A program made the translations under genes and the position numbers. Of a DNA stretch of 64,000 nucleotides, positions 6,719-19,958 are shown piece by piece. Source of the DNA: Massilia sp. Root418 (GTDB lineage Bacteria; Pseudomonadota; Gammaproteobacteria; Burkholderiales; Burkholderiaceae_D); contig NZ_LMEC01000001.1 of NCBI RefSeq assembly GCF_001425265.1, positions 248,281 to 312,280 of the forward strand, in the 5' to 3' direction. The notes beneath the pieces are model-generated. The model was not told where the DNA came from. It was given only the letters and a program-made list of their open reading frames with translations, and did not search any database. Numbering within the stretch: position 1 is the first letter of the stretch; the number at the start of each line of letters is the position of its first letter.

Positions 6719-6734
6719 TGCGACAGTTGTCGCA
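6719..6734. promoter_or_regulatory. BlaI-type operator O1
   Basis: TGCGACAGTTGTCGCA is a perfect 7-2-7 palindrome. It resembles the ACA-N2-TGT core bound by BlaI/MecI/CopY repressors. It lies just upstream of the -35 element of the promoter for the BlaI-family gene. Confidence 0.75.
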
Positions 6735-6742
6735 TAAAGCGA

Positions 6743-6771
6743 TTGCAGGGATGCGACAACTGTCGTATGAT
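6743..6771 (+). promoter_or_regulatory. Sigma-70 promoter of the BlaI/M56-M23 operon
   Basis: TTGCAG (6743-6748) and TATGAT (6766-6771) are separated by exactly 17 bp. The second operator (6752-6767) fills the spacer and touches the -10, so a bound repressor would block RNA polymerase. Confidence 0.7.
6752..6767. promoter_or_regulatory. BlaI-type operator O2
   Basis: TGCGACAACTGTCGTA is the reverse complement of operator O1 with one mismatch. Its start is 33 bp, about three helical turns, from that of O1. Both sites could therefore be bound on one DNA face by repressor dimers. Confidence 0.75.
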
Positions 6772-6799: not shown

Positions 6800-7174
6800 A
6801 TGTCCACGCCATCGGTAACCGAATTAAGCTTGTTGAAATGCTTGTGGAAGGAGCAGCCGCTGAGCGCGCGCGAAATCCACGAGCGGGTAGTGGATGAACT
6901 GGAGTGGTCATATTCGTCCACCCGCAAGACGCTGGACCGGATGCTGGAAAAGCAGATGGTGGCGCAGCAGGCCGTGCACGGCGTGAACGTGTACACGGCG
7001 GCGCTGGAGAAGGTGGCTACGCTGGCCGCTTTCGCGCATGACTTTGGCAAGCGCGTCATGGAGATGGATGCGCCGCTGCCGGTCAATATGTTCACGGGCA
7101 GCAAACTGGTGGACCGGCAGGAGTTGGCCGCACTGGATCAATTGCTGCAAGACTGGCCTGCGGAGAAGGACTGA
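6800..7174 (+). CDS. BlaI/MecI/CopY-family transcriptional repressor
   Basis: The 124-residue protein has the winged-helix N-terminus of the family: TELSLLKCLWKEQPLSAREIHE, then WSYSSTRKTLDRMLEKQMV as recognition helix, and a C-terminal helical dimerisation part. BlaI-type repressors are inactivated by a partner M56 (BlaR1-like) protease. The partner is the next gene, whose ATG follows the stop by two bases. AGGAG six bases before the ATG is a good ribosome-binding site. Two palindromic operators and a promoter directly upstream predict autoregulation. Neither a beta-lactamase gene nor a penicillin-binding protein gene is nearby, so the regulated process may not be classical beta-lactam resistance. 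Confidence 0.9.
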   Translation: MSTPSVTELSLLKCLWKEQPLSAREIHERVVDELEWSYSSTRKTLDRMLEKQMVAQQAVHGVNVYTAALEKVATLAAFAHDFGKRVMEMDAPLPVNMFTGSKLVDRQELAALDQLLQDWPAEKD

Positions 7175-7176
7175 GC

Positions 7177-8859
7177 ATGCCGTCGATTTCCCCTGTCTTG
7201 TTTTTGCTGGCCAGCGCTACCTGCCTCGTGGCGGGGGCGCTGGCGTGGGCGCTGTTGAAGCTGGCGGAGCGGCTGTGGCCGGGCATTGCGGCGCAGCGCG
7301 CGGTGTGGCTGCTGGCGCAGCTGGCGGTGGCGGTGACCTTCGTGCTGGCGCTGCTGCCGCGCAGCGCAGAGATCAGCGTGGTGCCGGCGATTGAGCTGTC
7401 GCCGGCGGAGCGCAGCGGGCCGCTTCAGGCATCGGCAGTGCCGGGCGTGCTGGGGCCGATTGGCCGGGATGCGCTGGACAGTGCCGCAGGCGATTCGGAG
7501 CTGGACGGCGCGCCCGTGAACGCGATGCCGCGCTGGCTGTCCCTGTTGTCGCTGGCCTGGCTGGCAGTTTACGGTGCGGGCTTGCTGTATGCGGCCGGCA
7601 GTTGGGCGCGGGCGCAGCGGGCGTTGCGGGCCTTGCTGCGCACGGCGGACCGCGTGAGCAGCGCCGCGCTGAATACGCGCCAGGGTTTCGCTGAGGTGTC
7701 GCCGTATCGCGGGCCGCCGGTGCTGGAGACGCCTGTGCCGGTGTCGCCCATGCTGGTGGGCCTGCGGACTCCGCGCTTGCTGCTGCCCAGCCACCTTTCA
7801 CAGTTCGACGCGCAGCAACAGCAGCTGATCGTGGCGCATGAGCTCACGCACTGGCGCCGCCGCGATCATGTGTGGCTGCACGCGAGCCTGCTGTTGCAGA
7901 CGCTGTTCTGGTTCAACCCTGCGGTGCGCCTGATGCGCGCGAAAATGAATTGGGCGCAGGAGCTGGCGTGCGACCAGCAGGTGCTGGCTGGCCGTCCCGT
8001 TCAGCAGCGCCAGAGTTATGCTGCGGCCCTGGTGGCGCAGCTGAAGCTGCAGGAAGCGATGGTGTCGAGTGGATATTCGGCGTCGGCGTTTGGCGGGGCA
8101 GGGCTGGCGGCGGTCAGCGAGAGGATCAGGCTGATACGCGATGGCGGAGCCGGCGTGCTGGGCGCGGCGGGCAAGACGCTGCTGGGTGGTGCCACCGTGG
8201 CGCTGCTGGCGGCCAGCGTGCTGCTACAGCCGGCATTCGCCTGGCGCGCTGCCGATGCGGGCGGGCAGGCGGGCGACGGCGGGGGCAGCATCACGGTGCC
8301 GCCGGATGTGGGCGTGGGTGCAGCTGTTGCCGATGCTGCCGGTGTCGCCGGTGCAGCGCGCGCCGAAACCGCTGCACCCGCCGCCACCGCTGACGCTCTG
8401 CCGTCCTGGCGGTCGCCGCTGGATGTGGCGCGGGTCAGCAGCTTCTACGGCCCGCGCAGCAAGCCGCTGGCGTCGAGCAACGCCTTTCATCGCGGGATCG
8501 ATTTTGCGGCGCATCGCGGCACGCCCGTGCTGGCGCCCGCGGCGGGCAAAGTGGTGGAGTCCACGGCGCTGTATGATGGCCAGGCCAAGTACGGGCAGGT
8601 GCTGGTGATCGACCACGGCAACGGCCTGCGTTCGATGTACGCGCACCTGGACCGGCGCTCGGTGCGTGTGGGGGACGCCGTGGCAGCTGGCCAGCAGATC
8701 GGCCTGTCCGGTGCTACGGGGCGGGTCACCGGGCCGCACTTGCATCTCGAAGTGCAGCGTGACGGCGCGCACGTGGATCCGGCACGGCTGATCGCCAACC
8801 TGGACGCCAGCGCTTTCCCTTCGGCGCTACGCGCGCGTTCGGCCGCACTGGCCAACTAA
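7177..8859 (+). CDS. M56 (BlaR1-like) membrane protease fused to M23 peptidase domain
   Basis: A 560-residue protein in two parts. The N-terminal part has hydrophobic segments near 8-30, 42-60, 119-143 and 330-355 and carries the M56 zinc motif HELTH (221-225) with Glu262 in QELACD downstream. After an Ala/Gly-rich linker (about 358-408) comes a complete LytM/M23 domain: HRGIDFAAHRGTPV with His438 and Asp442, HGNG, YAHL (His490) and GPHLHLEV with His521/His523. In BlaR1 the C-terminal outside domain is a beta-lactam sensor; here that place is taken by a peptidoglycan-peptidase fold. A role as a cell-wall-sensing anti-repressor for the adjacent BlaI-type protein is inferred. The gene starts two bases after the repressor stop. 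Confidence 0.9.
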   Translation: MPSISPVLFLLASATCLVAGALAWALLKLAERLWPGIAAQRAVWLLAQLAVAVTFVLALLPRSAEISVVPAIELSPAERSGPLQASAVPGVLGPIGRDALDSAAGDSELDGAPVNAMPRWLSLLSLAWLAVYGAGLLYAAGSWARAQRALRALLRTADRVSSAALNTRQGFAEVSPYRGPPVLETPVPVSPMLVGLRTPRLLLPSHLSQFDAQQQQLIVAHELTHWRRRDHVWLHASLLLQTLFWFNPAVRLMRAKMNWAQELACDQQVLAGRPVQQRQSYAAALVAQLKLQEAMVSSGYSASAFGGAGLAAVSERIRLIRDGGAGVLGAAGKTLLGGATVALLAASVLLQPAFAWRAADAGGQAGDGGGSITVPPDVGVGAAVADAAGVAGAARAETAAPAATADALPSWRSPLDVARVSSFYGPRSKPLASSNAFHRGIDFAAHRGTPVLAPAAGKVVESTALYDGQAKYGQVLVIDHGNGLRSMYAHLDRRSVRVGDAVAAGQQIGLSGATGRVTGPHLHLEVQRDGAHVDPARLIANLDASAFPSALRARSAALAN

Positions 8860-8874: not shown

Positions 8875-8904
8875 CGAAGTCCATGCCTGCGCGGCAGGAC
8901 TTCG
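8875..8904 (+). terminator. Strong hairpin after the M56-M23 gene
   Basis: CGAAGTCC (8875-8882) pairs with GGACTTCG (8897-8904), and an inner TGCC/GGCA stem extends it around a TGCGC loop. No U-run follows, so it may be a Rho-assisted terminator or a leader structure of the receptor gene 26 bases downstream. Confidence 0.5.
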
Positions 8905-8929: not shown

Positions 8930-11047
8930 ATGAAAGTACGCATTTGTGCGCTGGCGGTTGCAGTTGTCTTTCCGCCCGCTGCGGCCGCGCAGGCGGTGCA
9001 GCAGGTGGAGGTTGCAGGCACCCGGCTGGATCAGCGCCGCGAGGAGACTGCGGCCGCCATCATCATCGGGCCGCAGGAATTGCAGCGCCAGGGCGACCGC
9101 ACATTGGCCGATGCGCTGAAGCGCGTGCCGGGCATTACGATTGGGGAGGGCGGCGGCAAGGGCTCGGAGATCCGCATGCGGGGCCTGGGCAATGGCTATA
9201 CGCAGGTGCTGCTCAACGGCGTGGCCGTCCCGCCGGGTTTCAACGTGGAGAGCCTGGCGCCGGAGCTGGTCGAGAAGGTGGAGATTCTGCGTAGCGCGTC
9301 GGTGGAACTGGGGACGCAGGCGATAGCGGGCACGGTGAACATCATCTTGCGCAAGAGCGCGCCGCGCGCACGCCAGGAGGCCAAGCTCGGCGTCGACGCG
9401 CTGGCGGGAACGCGATCGCCAAGCTTGGGCTGGCAGGCGTCGGACAAGGGAGGCGGCAGCAGCTACACGGTGGCGGCAACGGCCAGCAGGACGTCCACAC
9501 CGGACACGCGGGTGGAGTATGAAACGGTGGACGCGCTCGCTGGCCAGGGCGGCGCGCCGGCAGTGTCGCGTGTGAGCCCGCAGCGCAATGTCAACATAGC
9601 GCGAGCGGCCAGTGTGGCGCCGCGCTTTACCTGGACACGGGGCGGCGACACGCTGGCCTCGCAGACTTTCGTGAACCTGTACGAGCGCACGCAGGGCGTG
9701 GAGGCGCACGAGCTGGTCCTGGCCGGCGCGCCGACGCAGTTTCCCGACAATGGCCGCCACGTGGTGCTGCGCGGCGTGCTGCTGCGCAGCGACCTGACGT
9801 GGCAGCGCGCGCTGGAGCAAGGTGCGCGCGTCGAGGCGAAAGTGGGCGTGCTGGCCAATCCGCGCAGCTCGGATTTCGAGTTCCATTCGCTGGCCGGCGG
9901 CGTGCATTCGGGCGACCTGAAAGTGGTGCACGCGGATATCGGCGAAGCCGGCCTTACCTTCAGCGGCAAATACCAGCTGCCGCTGGGTGGCGGCCACGCG
10001 CTGGCGGTGGGCTGGGACGGCGGCCGCACGCGGCGCACGCAGAGCCGGGAGGAGCAGGATCACACCACGGGCATGGCGTACGATGAGCGCTACCGCGGCT
10101 TGATCACGCGGCTTGCGGTGTTTGCGCAGGATGAGTGGGAACTGGGCCAGGATTGGTCGCTGTCGGCCGGCGTGCGCTGGGAGGCGCTGGAAACGGCGGT
10201 GGCGCAGCGCGGCGCGGGCCAGATCGTACAGCGGTCACCGGTTGTCAGCCCGGTCGTGCAGGGCATGCTCAAGCTGACGCCGCAGCAGCAGCTGCGCTTG
10301 GGACTGGCGCGCACTTTCAAGGCGCCGACCATGGTGGATCTGATCCCGCGCCGCTATACGACCGATAACAACAATAGCGCCACCAATCCCGACACCCAGG
10401 GCAATCCGGCGCTGCGGCCGGAGCTGGCCTGGGGCCTGGACGCTGGCTACGACCACTATTTCGGCAAGGATGGCTTGTTCAGCGCCAGCGCTTACGCGCG
10501 GCGCATCGAGGACGTGACGTTGCCGCTGCTGTTCAGGGACGGTGCGCGTTGGGTGCGCACTCCGTCGAACCAGGGGCGGGCGGATGCGTATGGCATGGCG
10601 CTGGAGGCAAAGGTTACGCTGTCCCCGGCGTGGGCAGTGCGTGGGAATGTGGCGCGCAACTGGTCGCGTGTGGCGGACGTGCCGGGGCCGGACAACCGGC
10701 TGGACCGCCAGGCGCCGCTTAGTGCGAATGTGGGCGTCGACTGGCAGGTCTTTCCGGCGCTGAAGGCTGGCGCGGATCTGAATTATCAACGCGGGGCGCG
10801 GACGCAGGTGTCGGTGGCGGAGGCGTCTTCCGTCGGCAGCGTGCGCAAGCTGGATCTGTATGCGGTCTGGCAGCTGGACGGTGCGACGCGGCTACGGTTG
10901 GGGGCTGTTAACCTGCTGCGGCGGCAAACCGTGGAGTGGAGCGCGGCGCAGTTGGGCAGTGCGGCCTTGCCGGGCGGCGTGCAGCAGGTGCTGACCCGCA
11001 CCGATGTGTCGCCGACGCTGCGCGTGGGCCTGGAGCGCAACTGGTAG
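8930..11047 (+). CDS. TonB-dependent outer-membrane receptor
   Basis: The 705-residue product starts with a signal peptide (about 1-20, ending AAAAQA). A plug domain follows (about 25-145) with VEVAGTRLDQRRE, LADALKRVPGITI, EIRMRGLGNGYTQVLLNG and VEKVEILRSASVELGTQAIAGTVNI. The long remainder has beta-barrel character with repeated amphipathic strands, a FKAPTMVDLIPRRY segment and a C-terminal aromatic residue (RVGLERNW). It imports a ligand across the outer membrane with TonB energy; the ligand is not identifiable. The ATG at 8930 is preferred over an in-frame TTG at 8918 because AGGAG lies directly before it. No clear FpvA-type signalling domain is present. Confidence 0.9.
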   Translation: MKVRICALAVAVVFPPAAAAQAVQQVEVAGTRLDQRREETAAAIIIGPQELQRQGDRTLADALKRVPGITIGEGGGKGSEIRMRGLGNGYTQVLLNGVAVPPGFNVESLAPELVEKVEILRSASVELGTQAIAGTVNIILRKSAPRARQEAKLGVDALAGTRSPSLGWQASDKGGGSSYTVAATASRTSTPDTRVEYETVDALAGQGGAPAVSRVSPQRNVNIARAASVAPRFTWTRGGDTLASQTFVNLYERTQGVEAHELVLAGAPTQFPDNGRHVVLRGVLLRSDLTWQRALEQGARVEAKVGVLANPRSSDFEFHSLAGGVHSGDLKVVHADIGEAGLTFSGKYQLPLGGGHALAVGWDGGRTRRTQSREEQDHTTGMAYDERYRGLITRLAVFAQDEWELGQDWSLSAGVRWEALETAVAQRGAGQIVQRSPVVSPVVQGMLKLTPQQQLRLGLARTFKAPTMVDLIPRRYTTDNNNSATNPDTQGNPALRPELAWGLDAGYDHYFGKDGLFSASAYARRIEDVTLPLLFRDGARWVRTPSNQGRADAYGMALEAKVTLSPAWAVRGNVARNWSRVADVPGPDNRLDRQAPLSANVGVDWQVFPALKAGADLNYQRGARTQVSVAEASSVGSVRKLDLYAVWQLDGATRLRLGAVNLLRRQTVEWSAAQLGSAALPGGVQQVLTRTDVSPTLRVGLERNW

Positions 11048-11189: not shown

Positions 11190-11762
11190 ATGAAACCTCA
11201 TTTTGTTATATCGGCCGCACTGGCCGCTGTCTGTGTGCTGGCGCTGGCCCAGCCGGGCGCTTCGGTGCCGGAACCGTGGATCGTGGCGGGCAAATCGCCC
11301 GAGATGTACCAGGCCGGCGTGGATGCCGACGGCAGCGGCAGCGGCAACAAGGGTGCCAAGTACCTGCGTATGGTGAAGGGAGACGGCAAGAGCTGGGGCA
11401 CCTTGATGCAGCAGTTCTCGGCCGAGCAGTATCGCGGCAAGCGGGTGCGCCTGCAGGCGGACGTGATGACGCATGCGGTGAGCGACTGGGCCGGCTTGTG
11501 GATGCGCGTGGACAGGCCGCAGATGCACGGCGCAGCCTTCTACAACAGCCAGGACAAGCCCATGAAGGGCACCATGGTGTGGGAGCGCCGCAGCGTGGTG
11601 CTGGACGTGGCGGAGGATGCCACCGTGGTGTCGCTGGGGGTAATCAGCAGCGGCTCGGGCGAAACCTATATCGACAATCTCAGCCTGGAAGTTGTGGGCA
11701 AGGACGTGCCGGCCGACGCTTTCACGCGCACCCGTAAGCTGCCGACGGAGCCTACGCTGTGA
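11190..11762 (+). CDS. Secreted beta-sandwich-like protein coupled to LytS/LytTR genes
   Basis: The 190-residue product has a signal peptide (about 1-20). Its body (YRGKRVRLQADVMTH, WAGLWMRVDRP, AAFYNSQDKPMKGT, WERRSVVLDVAEDATVVSLG, GSGETYIDNLSLEVV) recalls a carbohydrate-binding-like beta-sandwich sometimes seen attached to AraC-type and other regulators. I do not know its ligand. I chose the ATG at 11190, with GGGAGA upstream, instead of one 15 bases earlier. The stop TGA overlaps the GTG start of the histidine kinase gene, so the two are translationally coupled. An exported sensor-accessory protein for the two-component system is a reasonable inference. Confidence 0.75.
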   Translation: MKPHFVISAALAAVCVLALAQPGASVPEPWIVAGKSPEMYQAGVDADGSGSGNKGAKYLRMVKGDGKSWGTLMQQFSAEQYRGKRVRLQADVMTHAVSDWAGLWMRVDRPQMHGAAFYNSQDKPMKGTMVWERRSVVLDVAEDATVVSLGVISSGSGETYIDNLSLEVVGKDVPADAFTRTRKLPTEPTL

Positions 11763-12928
11763 CGGCGGGCGCGGCATCGCCGGTGGTGGCGGAGTTGGGC
11801 CCGGCCCAGGCGTTGCTGCGCCTTGGCGGGTGCTCCTGGCGCCAGGCGTCGGCCAGTGCTGCGCTGCTGCTGTTGCTGTGCGTGGCCGCGTGGCGCATGC
11901 GGACGCTGGCCTGGCTGGCGCTGTTCGGGGCCTTGCTGGCCGCGCTGGCCGTCGGCACAGCGGTGCTGATGCTGGTGCGGCTGGTGCTGCCTACGCAGCG
12001 CGCGGCGCAGGACGGCGGCTGGTGGTGGGCCTGGGGCGGATTGGCGGCTGCCCTGGCTGCCGGTGCTGGCAGCGCGGTGCTGGTGTATCGCGGCCTGGCG
12101 CCGTTGCTCGGTAGTCGCAGCCTGGCGGACGGCCAGGTATTCGGCAGCGCGCTGGCGTTGTGCACCTTGTTGCTGGCGGTGCCGCTGGCGGTGCTGCGTC
12201 GCCAGTCGCAGGCGCTGCAACTGGCGACGCTGAAGCAGGCCGCACTGGCGGCGGAACTGAAGTCCCTGCAGGCGCAGGTGGAACCGCACTTTTTGTATAA
12301 CACGCTGGCCAACACCCGCTACCTGGCGCGCCACGAGCCGGCCAAGGCGGTCGACATGCTGGACCATCTGATCGCCTATCTGCACACGGCGCTACCGGAC
12401 ATGCGCACGTCCGTCTCCACACTGGGGCGGGAGTGCCAGCTCGCGGAACACTATCTGGCGCTGATGGCGATCCGGTTTGGCGAACGCATGTCGTACGAGG
12501 TGTCGTGCCCGGAGGTGCTACGGGCCGCGGCCATGCCGCCGCTGATGCTGATGTCGCTGGTGGAGAACGCGGTGCGGCATGGCGTGGAAGCCAAGCCGGG
12601 CGCCGTGAGCGTGCACGTGAGCGCGGCCGTGCATGGGGACAGCCTGCATGTGCTGGTGGCTGATAGCGGCGCAGGCCTGGCCGAGGCGGTGTTCGGCAGC
12701 GGCGTGGGCTTGCGCAATGTGCGCGAACGGCTGGCGGCGCAATATGGTGCGCGGGCCGGATTTGAGCTGCGTACCGGCAGCGCCGGCCAGACCGAGGCCG
12801 AGTTGCGGCTGCCGCTGGCTTGGCAGGAGGCGGCCCGTGCCGGCGCCGACGCTGCGGCCCTGGCCGTGACAGGCATCGCGGCTAGTTCCGGCGCAGCGGC
12901 TGCGCCACTGACTGAAATGGCGGCATGA
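11759..12928 (+). CDS. LytS/YehU-type sensor histidine kinase
   Basis: The 389-residue protein has four to five hydrophobic segments (about 33-75, 88-112, 128-148) and a cytoplasmic His_kinase/HATPase module. The phospho-acceptor is His177 in EPHFLYNTLANTRYL, the N-box is LVENAVRHGVE with Asn270, and the G-box region is DSGAGL followed by GVGLRNVRERL. The GTG start at 11759 overlaps the previous stop. The signal it senses is unknown; no periplasmic domain of size is present, so the preceding secreted protein may matter. The last four bases overlap the response-regulator ATG. Confidence 0.88.
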   Translation: MTAGAASPVVAELGPAQALLRLGGCSWRQASASAALLLLLCVAAWRMRTLAWLALFGALLAALAVGTAVLMLVRLVLPTQRAAQDGGWWWAWGGLAAALAAGAGSAVLVYRGLAPLLGSRSLADGQVFGSALALCTLLLAVPLAVLRRQSQALQLATLKQAALAAELKSLQAQVEPHFLYNTLANTRYLARHEPAKAVDMLDHLIAYLHTALPDMRTSVSTLGRECQLAEHYLALMAIRFGERMSYEVSCPEVLRAAAMPPLMLMSLVENAVRHGVEAKPGAVSVHVSAAVHGDSLHVLVADSGAGLAEAVFGSGVGLRNVRERLAAQYGARAGFELRTGSAGQTEAELRLPLAWQEAARAGADAAALAVTGIAASSGAAAAPLTEMAA

Positions 12929-13680
12929 ACGATTTTCTTGCGCCGCGTCCGCGCGTGCTGATTGCGGATGACGAGCCTTTGCTGCGGGCGGAATTGCGCG
13001 AGGCGCTGCGGCAGCTGTGGCCCGAGGCCGAGCTGGTGGGCGAGGCGGCCGACGGCTACGAGGCCTTGCGCCTGGCGCAGCAGCTGGCGCCCGACGTGGC
13101 CTTTCTCGATATCCGCATGCCGGGCCTGAGCGGGCTGGAACTGGCGCGCACTTTCTCGGCGCGCACCCACGTGGTGTTCGTGACGGCTTACCACGAGCAC
13201 GCGGTGGCGGCGTTCGACGAGGGAGCGGTGGATTACGTGCTCAAGCCGGCCGATCCCATCCGCCTGGCGCGCTGCATTGCGCGGGTGCGCGAGCGCCTGC
13301 GCCAGCCGCCGCCGGATCTTACACGCCTGATGGCGCGCCTGCAGGCCAAGCCGGCCGCGCCGTGCTGGCTGCAGGCTTCCATCGGGCAGACCATCCATTT
13401 TATCGATCTGGCGGACGTGATCTATTTCGCCGCCGAGGCCAAGTACACGCGGGTGGTGACGGACACGCTGGAAGCGCACATTCGCACGCCGCTCAAGGAG
13501 CTGGCTGAAACGCTGGACGAGGCGGGCTTCTGGCAGGTGCACCGCAGCCACGTGGTGGCGGTGAAGCGCATCTCGGCGGCCAGCAGGGATGGCGACGGCG
13601 CGCTGTGGCTGTCGCTGCGCGGCCACGCCGCCAGGCTACCCGTGAGCCAGCGTTTTCAGCACCGTTTCAAGGGAATGTGA
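12925..13680 (+). CDS. LytTR-family response regulator
   Basis: A 251-residue protein with a receiver domain (acidic pair Asp15/Asp16, phospho-acceptor Asp62 in FLDIRMPG, TAY and KP motifs) and a C-terminal LytTR DNA-binding domain (about 145-250) with VIYFAAEAKYTRVVT and FWQVHRSHVVAVKRI. It is the partner of the kinase encoded by the overlapping gene upstream (ATGA overlap). LytTR regulators bind pairs of short direct repeats in promoters; targets are not determined, though the neighbouring TonB-dependent receptor is a candidate. Confidence 0.92.
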   Translation: MNDFLAPRPRVLIADDEPLLRAELREALRQLWPEAELVGEAADGYEALRLAQQLAPDVAFLDIRMPGLSGLELARTFSARTHVVFVTAYHEHAVAAFDEGAVDYVLKPADPIRLARCIARVRERLRQPPPDLTRLMARLQAKPAAPCWLQASIGQTIHFIDLADVIYFAAEAKYTRVVTDTLEAHIRTPLKELAETLDEAGFWQVHRSHVVAVKRISAASRDGDGALWLSLRGHAARLPVSQRFQHRFKGM

Positions 13681-17792: not shown

Positions 17793-19958
17793 ATGACAAA
17801 GAAGAAAGACATTGAATTTCTCCGTGTAACACACTTGCGCGGACCTAATATCTGGACCTACCGCCCGGTGATCGAGGCCTGGCTGGATATTGGCGAGCTC
17901 GAAAATTTCCCCTCTGACAAAATCCCCGGCCTGTACGAACGCCTCACCGCCGTGCTGCCGCACCTGGTGGAGCACCGCTGCGGTGTGGGCGAGCGCGGCG
18001 GATTCAACGAACGCCTGCGCGACGGCACTTATGCCGGCCACATCCTCGAACACGTGGTGCTGGAACTGCAGAACCTGGCCGGCATGCGCACCGGCTTCGG
18101 CAAGACGCGCCAGACTTCCGAGGACGGCGTGATCTACAAGATGGCTTTCCGCACCCGCCAGGAACAGGTGGGGCGCGCCGCGCTCGCCGCCGGCCGCGAA
18201 CTGCTGATGGCCGCCATCGAAGACCGTCCGTACGACCTGGCAGCCACCGTGGCCGAGCTGACCGACATGGTCGAGTCGCTGTGCCTGGGCCCGAGCACGG
18301 CCAACATCGTTGATGCCGCCACCGACCGCAAGATCCCCTCGATCCGCCTGACCGACGGCAACCTGGTACAACTGGGCCACGGCTCGCGCCAGCGCCGCAT
18401 CTGGACCGCCGAGACCGACGCCACCAGCGCGATTGCCGAAGGCATCGCCAGCGACAAGGATCTGACCAAGAGCCTGCTGGCCTCGGCCGGCGTGCCGGTG
18501 CCGGAAGGCGAATTGGTGCGCAGCGCCGAGGAAGCCTGGGAAGCGGCCGAGGACATCGGCCTGCCGGTGGTGGTGAAGCCCTACGACGGCAACCACGGCC
18601 GCGGCGTAACCCTGAACCTGACCACCCGCGAAGACGTGACGGCCGCCTACGAGCTGGCCGCGCGCAAGGGCGGCAGCAAGAGCGTGATCGTGGAGCGTTT
18701 CATCGCCGGCGACGAACACCGCCTGCTGGTGGTGGGCAAGAAGCTGATCGCGGCCGCCAAGGGCGAGTCGCTGTGGGTAACCGGCGACGGCCAGCATACC
18801 ATCAAGCAGCTGTGCGACATGCACATCAATATCGACCCGCGCCGCGGCGAGACGGAAGATTCGCCGCTGGGCCTGATCAAGCCGCACGAGTCGGCCGAGA
18901 TCATCCTCGAACTCAAGCGCCAGAACATGACGCACGAATCGGTGCCGGCCGCCGGCCACAAGGTGCTGATCCAGCCGAACGGCAACGTGGCGGTGGACGT
19001 GACCGACCTGGTGCACCCGGACATCGCCGAGATGGCCACTCTGGCTGCGCGCGTGATCGGCCTGGACATCGCCGGCATCGACCTGGTGACGCAGGATATT
19101 TCCCGTCCGCTGGAAGCGCAGGGTGGCGCCATCATCGAAGTGAACGCCAGCCCGGGCTTGCTGGCGCACCTGAAGCCGGCCGAAGGCGGCCAGCCGCGTC
19201 CGGTGGGCGCGGCCATTGTCGACCAGCTGTTTGCAGCGGACGACACCGGCCGCATCCCGGTGGTGGGCGTGGCCGGCGAGCGGCACAGCGTGCTGATCGC
19301 CAACCTGACCGCCTGGCTGCTGGAAGTGAGCGGCAAGTCGGTGGGCCTGAGCTGCGAGGAAGGCATTTACCTGAACGGGCGCAAGGTGCCGCGCGGGCCG
19401 CTGTCGGCTTGGGAGTCGGGCCAGCGCCTGCTGCTCAACCGTAATGTGGAGGCGGCCGTGTTCCACAATGGCAGCCGCATGATCCTCACCGAAGGCCTGG
19501 CCTACGACAAGTGCTCGGTTGGCATTGTCACCGACGTCGGCGGGCACGGCGAACTGTCGGAGTTCTACATTTCCGACGAAGATGATATGTACGGCGTGCT
19601 GCGCACCCAGGTCGACGTGGTGTTGCCGGACGGCGCCGCGGTGCTGAACGCGGCCGAGCCGCAAGTTGTGGAAATGGCCGAGCTGTGCGACGGCGCCGTG
19701 ATCTTCTACGGCCTGGACGAGCAGTTGCCCGCCATCGTGGAGCACCGCCAGGACGGCGAGCGCGCCGTGTTCCTGCGCGCCGGCGGCTTCGTGCTGGCGG
19801 CCGGTGCCAACGACGTGGCGATGCTGCCCCTGTCGTGCATGCCGGCCAGCCAGAAGGGCAACGAGGAAGCCGTGCTGGCGGCAATTGCCGCCGGCTGGGC
19901 GCTGGGCCTGGAACCCGGCCTGATCGCCGCCGCGCTGCGCACCTTCAAGGCCAACTAA
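17793..19958 (+). CDS. cphA': Cyanophycin synthetase paralogue with degenerate P-loop (CphA'-type)
   Basis: The 721-residue protein shares the cyanophycin synthetase N-domain (LRGPNIWTYRPVIEAWLDIGE), and an ATP-grasp domain (VVVKPYDGNHGRGVTLN, VERFIAGDEHRLLVVGKKLIAA, IIEVNASPGLLAHL). It also has a shortened Mur-ligase-like C-domain. The Mur-ligase P-loop is lost: where CphA has GTNGKTTT, this protein has GVAGERHSV (492-500). CphA2-type enzymes with a similar loss polymerise beta-aspartyl-arginine dipeptides instead of free amino acids; whether CphA' does so is not known from sequence. The gene is 49 bp upstream of cphA and divergent from the ABC transporter. AAGAG lies eight bases before the ATG. 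Confidence 0.9.
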   Translation: MTKKKDIEFLRVTHLRGPNIWTYRPVIEAWLDIGELENFPSDKIPGLYERLTAVLPHLVEHRCGVGERGGFNERLRDGTYAGHILEHVVLELQNLAGMRTGFGKTRQTSEDGVIYKMAFRTRQEQVGRAALAAGRELLMAAIEDRPYDLAATVAELTDMVESLCLGPSTANIVDAATDRKIPSIRLTDGNLVQLGHGSRQRRIWTAETDATSAIAEGIASDKDLTKSLLASAGVPVPEGELVRSAEEAWEAAEDIGLPVVVKPYDGNHGRGVTLNLTTREDVTAAYELAARKGGSKSVIVERFIAGDEHRLLVVGKKLIAAAKGESLWVTGDGQHTIKQLCDMHINIDPRRGETEDSPLGLIKPHESAEIILELKRQNMTHESVPAAGHKVLIQPNGNVAVDVTDLVHPDIAEMATLAARVIGLDIAGIDLVTQDISRPLEAQGGAIIEVNASPGLLAHLKPAEGGQPRPVGAAIVDQLFAADDTGRIPVVGVAGERHSVLIANLTAWLLEVSGKSVGLSCEEGIYLNGRKVPRGPLSAWESGQRLLLNRNVEAAVFHNGSRMILTEGLAYDKCSVGIVTDVGGHGELSEFYISDEDDMYGVLRTQVDVVLPDGAAVLNAAEPQVVEMAELCDGAVIFYGLDEQLPAIVEHRQDGERAVFLRAGGFVLAAGANDVAMLPLSCMPASQKGNEEAVLAAIAAGWALGLEPGLIAAALRTFKAN

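Follow-up and report, generated by a model that had tools for sequence, protein, structure and literature searches.

The gene set at the locus

The window, a 64,000-nucleotide stretch of the Massilia sp. Root418 genome (NZ_LMEC01000001.1, positions 248,281 to 312,280), contained a BlaI/MecI-type repressor gene followed on the same strand by a membrane protease fused to an M23 peptidase domain and by a TonB-dependent receptor. The features are given below in window coordinates.

6719–6734, no strand: operator-like palindrome 1, TGCGACA-GT-TGTCGCA, an exact match to TGCGACANNTGTCGYA
6743–6771, + strand: possible promoter read from the sequence, TTGCAG (6743–6748), 17 bp, TATGAT (6766–6771)
6752–6767, no strand: operator-like palindrome 2, TGCGACA-AC-TGTCGTA, 33 bp from the first and in the spacer of the promoter-like pair
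6800–7174, + strand: BlaI/MecI-type repressor, 124 aa; Penicillinase_R 66.7 bits (cut-off 22.6); stop codon 2 bases before the fusion ATG
7177–8859, + strand: M56–M23 fusion gene, 560 aa, intact open reading frame; Pfam and fold matches
7207–8058, + strand: M56 (BlaR1 protease) region, residues 11–294; Pfam Peptidase_M56 116.8 bits, E 1.4e-33
7837–7851, + strand: HELTH, residues 221–225, the M56 gluzincin motif, with E262xxxD266
8089–8091, + strand: Phe305, probable equivalent of Phe284, the P1' residue of BlaR1 autocleavage
8233–8241, + strand: A353-F-A355, a signal-peptidase-like AxA immediately past the last membrane helix (330–349)
8239–8391, + strand: low-complexity linker, residues 355–405, pLDDT <50 and disordered in the model
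8485–8781, + strand: M23 (LytM) domain, residues 437–535; Pfam Peptidase_M23 114.1 bits, E 3.4e-33; PDB sequence matches
8930–11047, + strand: TonB-dependent receptor, 705 aa, plug and barrel in Pfam, 70 bp past the fusion gene

The sequence-only reading of this stretch had described an M56 domain with HELTH at residues 221–225 fused to an M23 domain, directly after a BlaI-type repressor. The open reading frame, both domains, and every residue it named were confirmed by Pfam and sequence, as was the position behind the Penicillinase_R gene. That reading had passed over the receptor gene and both palindromes. Pfam scores for M56 and M23 were well above the curated cut-offs, and all five M23 active-site residues (H438, D442, H490, H521, and H523) were present. 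No NCBIfam model reached its cut-off on the fusion, with blaR1_generic scoring 62.4 against a cut-off of 400. A penicillin-binding sensor with an SxxK motif was looked for and was absent, Pfam giving M56 and M23 alone; strictly speaking, the fusion is therefore no BlaR1 but a domain-swapped form of it.

The second palindrome began inside the promoter spacer and extended into the second hexamer. The promoter pair itself was weak: TTGCAG agreed with the consensus at three of six positions, and a generic scan missed the pair. Exact operator matches in the 7.27-Mb genome were limited to the two sites at the locus. When up to two mismatches were allowed, 43 + 48 matches were found compared with 60 + 62 in a reversed control; given no excess over the control, no regulon beyond the two exact sites is indicated.

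Conservation and predicted structure of the fusion

Relatives were collected from 52 stretches, mostly around genus-survey matches, together with 80 named loci and 3 more; the named loci were the best 80 by similarity of the M56 part and not a random sample of M56 proteins. This yielded 103 fused entries, reduced to 77 non-redundant ones (the window's own included), and 23 transpeptidase-type entries, here called true BlaR1s. Oxalobacteraceae contributed 74 of the 77 and two other families the remaining three, and the best named relative among the matches listed belonged to Massilia sp. Root351 (L131), Oxalobacteraceae. In the family to which the window belongs, matches at 1e-60 came from 35 of 195 genomes, 30 of them with both domains by query ranges. 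Two further families of the same class, designated f57 and f53, gave matches in 6 of 149 genomes (E up to 1e-50) and 16 of 147 genomes (E up to 1e-40), respectively. The order and phylum surveys, which scored three candidates per genome, gave lower bounds of at least 2 of 399 and at least 5 of 398. Pairs of BlaI with M56–M23 were found in Oxalobacteraceae, f53, and f57.

The M56 residues H221, E222, H225, E262, and D266 were each present in all 77 fused proteins. BlaR1 is characterized by H201ExxH, E242xxxD, Asp210, Tyr261, and Arg294 and autocleaves at the Ser283–Phe284 bond, while BlaI is cut between Asn101 and Phe102 (PMC9834060). The counterparts of H201, E242, D210, Y261, F284, and R294 in the fusion were H221, E262, D230, Y281, F305, and R316, at offsets that were the same or nearly so. 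D230 and R316 were found in 77/77 proteins, and Y281 and F305 in 75/77. Going by the aligned sequences, the fusion architecture is not chance, as its residues are conserved across the 77 non-redundant relatives. In a separate set of 22 f53 and f57 proteins (three also among the 77; a script placed the open reading frame starts close to the end of blaI, and the L212 sequence is cut before its likely start), H221, E262, D266, D230, and R316 were all present in 22/22, Y281 in 19/22, and F305 in 18/22; the BlaR1-type residues appear less strict there than in the 77-protein set. The BlaI residue Phe98 was a phenylalanine in 90 of 90 distinct BlaIs aligned, including those beside true BlaR1s, and by eye its segment appears to match the cleavage region. 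By analogy with BlaR1, the fusion would cleave both BlaI and itself. Overall, the BlaR1-like half of the reading is well supported.

An AlphaFold2 model of the fusion, based on 58 sequences whose alignment held 57 of the 59 listed fused relatives (L146 and L178 left out), had a mean pLDDT of 81.6 and a pTM of 0.61. The model showed long helices at residues 6–33, 41–59, 119–156, and 330–349 and an M23 fold beyond the linker. Using VIA-align, residues 9–312 superposed on S. aureus BlaR1 (8exs_A; Z 18.3, rmsd 3.4, 248 residues, 15% identity) and residues 407–540 on ShyA (6ue4_A; Z 18.8, rmsd 2.6, 129 residues). EnvC, DipM, and LytM were also among the M23 fold matches (Z 17.5 to 19.3, region about 407–541), and identity to ShyA structures was 38–42% by Foldseek. 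All of the best 50 Foldseek matches listed were M23 or M23-containing proteins, so the BlaR1 match depends on VIA-align and Pfam. With both halves superposing on BlaR1 and on M23 enzymes, the structure prediction bore out the earlier description of a BlaR1-like protein with a peptidoglycan-peptidase fold as its outside domain. The M23 fold is common to ShyA, LytM, EnvC, and DipM; in the fusion it is tethered to a BlaR1-type protease, whereas those proteins are secreted or act in division.

Because both termini of BlaR1 lie outside (PMC9834060), homology puts the M23 domain on the periplasmic side. The charge counts weakly support this placement, with three K+R and eight D+E in residues 60–118 and 17 K+R and 11 D+E in residues 157–329. 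The helix pattern and the BlaR1 match likewise put the M23 domain outside the cytoplasm, and the cytoplasmic placement that had been named as evidence against a sensor did not emerge in silico. The M23 half is accordingly predicted to be a complete, periplasmic LytM/ShyA-type fold.

The same genome carried, on another contig, a second BlaI beside a true BlaR1 with M56 and transpeptidase domains (L081:7495-9764), which provides a natural control. Its M56 part was 47% identical to that of the fusion over 8–385 and its BlaI 70% identical, and the architecture was common up to the last helix; beyond it lay a transpeptidase sensor instead of M23, and the two proteins fell on opposite sides of the M56 tree. 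One fully supported branch separated the fused from the transpeptidase kind in this unrooted tree, which had 100 rows. A single exchange of the outer domain would therefore suffice, and the unrooted tree gives no direction for it. L213 sat on a very long branch in each of the two trees, and its placement is unsure. Four M56 proteins were present in the genome, and their outer parts were a transpeptidase, M23, TonB_C, and one without a convincing named domain. The latter two kinds correspond to L002:853-2547 and L004:1159-3243, M56 proteins of which one has a TonB_C end and one has weak coiled-coil-type matches only.

Compared with BlaR1/MecR1-BlaI/MecI of S. aureus and B. licheniformis, the system shares a BlaI-type repressor beside an M56 membrane protease of the same fold, with the HExxH, ExxxD, Asp, Tyr, autocleavage Phe, and Arg residues mostly kept. 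Palindromic operator-like sites before blaI are also shared, and the AxA of the fusion lies near the BlaR1 signal-peptidase site (PMC9834060). It differs in that the sensor is M23 rather than a penicillin-binding domain, in its occurrence here in Gram-negative families, and in its next genes, which encode a TonB-dependent receptor, an M23 endopeptidase, a PF00144 hydrolase, or an esterase. The available part of a review lists M56 among rare partners of M23, all other catalytic domains together making up <1% of hits, and within that part a role of M56 in peptidoglycan cleavage is described as not shown, and no function, operon, operator, or mechanism is given for M56+M23 (PMC9662197). Among the open-access literature matches listed for this architecture or for BlaI/M56 with M23, receptors, or wall stress, none described an M56–M23 mechanism.

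Operator-like sites and neighboring genes

The operator motif TGCGACA-N2-TGTCGCA, at up to two mismatches, preceded blaI in 75 of 75 scorable non-redundant loci, the other 2 of the 77 being without usable sequence upstream of BlaI. At least two sites were present in 31/75 loci, spaced by 33 (24 loci) or 34 (7 loci). The motif was likewise found at up to two mismatches in 19/19 further loci from two other families, and exact copies occurred in L211, L212, and L213. Related sites were also seen before the BlaIs of true BlaR1s (L081 and L084–L086), which makes the motif a property of this BlaI branch rather than something specific to M23. For 75/77 fused genes the locus also included a same-strand BlaI; the repressor was missing from the open reading frame lists of L146/L052 (contig end) and L178. 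BlaI would be expected to bind these candidate operators and to repress from them.

The receptor was the next gene after the fusion in 76 of 77 cases (75 by an automatic rule and L052/L146 by reading, with L213 as the exception), at a median distance of 78 bp in the non-redundant set. It was next to none of the 23 true BlaR1s. No further receptor of the same kind was found in 796 kb of flanks lying more than 3.5 kb from the 77 genes, a count that omits 3.5 kb on each side and hence a 264-aa receptor-like open reading frame upstream in L173. The receptor model had a pLDDT of 84.9, with an alignment from 30 of 59 receptors. Many transporters matched it about equally by fold or sequence, so no cargo was assigned. 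FecA/FecR surface signaling needs a receptor with an N-terminal signaling (STN) domain; the window's receptor, unlike FecA, had no STN domain by Pfam and consisted of plug and barrel only, with the plug starting at residue 37.

Standalone M23 genes followed the receptor in 7 of 74 Oxalobacteraceae operons. Recent duplication of the sensor M23 was considered as their origin and was unsupported, as 10 of 12 standalone rows formed a clade of their own; the two rows outside it were L057, a cut half of a fused gene, and the distant M23 of L213. The M56 and M23 parts of the fusion in L057 and L059, which belong to one genome, are divided across two contig ends, and as far as seen this is an assembly break and not a split gene. 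The standalone M23 of the window genome lay away from the operon (L080:7908-9209) and fell in the clade of the relatives' operon M23s, and no exact operator occurred at its locus. An Acyl_transf_3 gene stood after the receptor in L036–L039, L041, L043, and others. The gap was −3 in 16 of 20 entries (redundant), and the operon of those species may include this gene as its fourth. A downstream patatin gene (23 redundant entries) had variable gaps and is not claimed as part of the operon. The hairpin at 8875–8904, between the sensor and receptor genes, was not unusual relative to shuffles (z −1.35) and occurred just once in the genome when up to three mismatches were allowed. Further downstream in the window, 11190–11762 encoded a 190-aa protein with no Pfam match, relatives of which lay near the same operon in L042, L051, L057, and L132. 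It was followed by a histidine kinase (His_kinase/HATPase_c) and LytTR response regulator pair (11759–13680) and, at 17793–19958, by a cyanophycin synthetase-like gene (Cyanophycin_syn N-terminal domain and RimK ATP-grasp).

The next gene varied in the other two families. The next gene in f57 was a receptor in 3/6 loci, neither a receptor nor a wall enzyme in 3/6, and a wall enzyme in 0/6. Receptors were the next gene in 0/16 f53 loci, where blaI, M56–M23, and the operator were retained. An M23 endopeptidase stood there in 5/16 (L244 and L249–L251 by Pfam, L253 by 75% identity to L251), and Csd3_N2 was over its cut-off in three of the four genes found by Pfam. PF00144 hydrolases accounted for another 5/16 (L240 by Pfam; L213, L242, L245, and L252 by similarity) and PF00756 esterases for 3/16 (L241 and L243 by Pfam, L247 by 92% identity to L243); the remaining three (L239, L246, and L248) had none of these.

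The M23 domain as a possible input

The fusion should work like BlaR1. Reasoning from that system, signaling would run across the membrane from the outside domain to the repressor. Specifically, in the resting state BlaI would occupy both palindromes at the promoter, keeping its own operon of blaI, sensor, and TonB-dependent receptor repressed. A wall peptide, either a muropeptide or a cross-link substrate, would occupy the M23 groove, and the change in occupancy would be relayed via the membrane helices to the cytoplasmic gluzincin site, which would cut BlaI near Phe98 and derepress the operon. We regard this proposal, a BlaR1-type signaling protease that uses a periplasmic M23 domain as a wall-peptide sensor and derepresses its own operon through BlaI cleavage, as evenly poised between right and wrong. 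That M23 is the input and a wall peptide the ligand would follow from the M23 fold and the neighboring wall enzymes. That the fusion sits in a conserved, putatively self-regulated set of genes, together with either an outer-membrane importer or wall enzymes, suggests a wired-in sensor of cell-wall peptides.

To our knowledge, beta-lactams are the only case in which BlaR1 signaling has been worked out. Should a different outside domain drive the protease here, the BlaI–M56 pair would be a general, swappable signaling chassis, and Gram-negative bacteria would gain a direct wall-peptide readout. A sensor that shares its fold with an enzyme under its control would be the M23 counterpart of BlaR1 and beta-lactamase. 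The sensor of BlaR1 resembles class D beta-lactamases (PMC7593790), and M23 genes beside an M23-type sensor (5/16 loci in f53 and 7/74 in Oxalobacteraceae) parallel this likeness. A wall link to the repressor is also on record, as BlaI/MecI is bound by a dipeptide that arises in peptidoglycan turnover (PMC3305447). With a one-operon regulon and a sharp operator, the circuit is testable by a single reporter.

Several observations count against the wall-sensor reading. The first controlled gene was a TonB-dependent receptor in nearly all of the 77 cases rather than a wall enzyme, no wall enzyme was next in f57, and 6/16 f53 loci lacked an M23 or PF00144 gene. The weak promoter-like pair of the window and the looser BlaR1-type residues in f53 and f57 also weigh against it. 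The direct cell-wall-damage sensor of the sequence-only reading is plausible, with circumstantial backing from the M23 and PF00144 neighbors in f53; the receptor in the window misfits simple damage sensing. In a broader version, a domain-swapped BlaR1 family would read wall peptides via a captured endopeptidase and, in Oxalobacteraceae, would run TonB-dependent uptake of wall fragments, with import, M23 recognition, and BlaI cleavage raising the amount of importer and, in some species, of endopeptidase as well. This version is tentative and, taken as a whole, unlikely.

Cargo sensing is the strongest rival to the wall-peptide sensor. Here the M23 domain would recognize whatever the receptor imports (a peptide, a metallophore, or a peptide antibiotic), and the circuit would serve uptake rather than a wall-stress response. 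The near-constant receptor neighbor of the fusion, missing from the true BlaR1s and from the distant flanks, favors this, as do the PF00756 esterases of f53. The receptor model, matching many transporters about equally, indicates no cargo, and the f53 system persists without a receptor as next gene, which makes the receptor dispensable for the sensor in that family. We rate cargo sensing as doubtful.

Alternatively, the M23 domain may be a working endopeptidase at the inner membrane, with M56 autocleavage or a signal peptidase freeing or switching it and BlaI setting its dose. D442, H490, H521, and H523 were present in 77/77 fused proteins and H438 in 73/77, so that the active site was complete in 73/77, and it was complete in 22/22 of the f53/f57 proteins. 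Most members could thus be active enzymes by sequence, which counts equally for an effector and for a sensor; since a complete site is also expected from selection for enzyme activity, the domain may be an effector and not a sensor. H438 was replaced by Ser in L076–L078 and by Leu in L179 with the gene order unchanged, which speaks against an effector, although L076–L078 form one clade and the losses therefore represent few events. A release site is conceivable at A353-F-A355 past the last helix (A353 and A355 each in 72/77), given that signal peptidase cuts the equivalent linker of S. aureus BlaR1 at Gly331 (PMC9834060). A similar AxA was read in the sequence of the true BlaR1 paralogue, so the motif is not M23-specific, and it was mostly not evident in f53 relatives. 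The separate M23 enzyme in 7/74 operons would also be redundant with such an effector, and we consider this explanation quite unlikely.

Zinc or metal status is a further candidate input, in which loading of the M23 zinc site would report periplasmic zinc and switch receptor uptake and wall enzymes. It is kept as a rival because a cell-wall endopeptidase of V. cholerae is induced by zinc starvation (PMC6381278), and zinc stress in Caulobacter induces TonB-dependent importers (PMC12864828). Against it, one zinc ligand was lost in 4/77 proteins, the receptor had only eight His in 705 aa, and the PF00144 and esterase neighbors had no clear zinc link. M56 proteases themselves need zinc, which also weighs against it. 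This reading appears very unlikely.

An ordinary beta-lactam resistance regulator, already disfavored, is almost certainly not what the locus encodes: the BlaI and M56 families by Pfam and the PF00144 (beta-lactamase family) hydrolase next in 5/16 f53 loci speak for it, but the fusion has no transpeptidase or penicillin-binding domain by Pfam, and its next gene is the receptor, whereas a sensor-like or metallo-beta-lactamase-like gene is next in 7/23 transpeptidase-type paralogues. Specifically, the gene after the true BlaR1 was a sensor-domain relative in 4/23 cases, metallo-beta-lactamase-like in 3/23, and neither in 16/23, where the labels 'metallo-beta-lactamase-like' and 'class D-like' come from motif reading and similarity.
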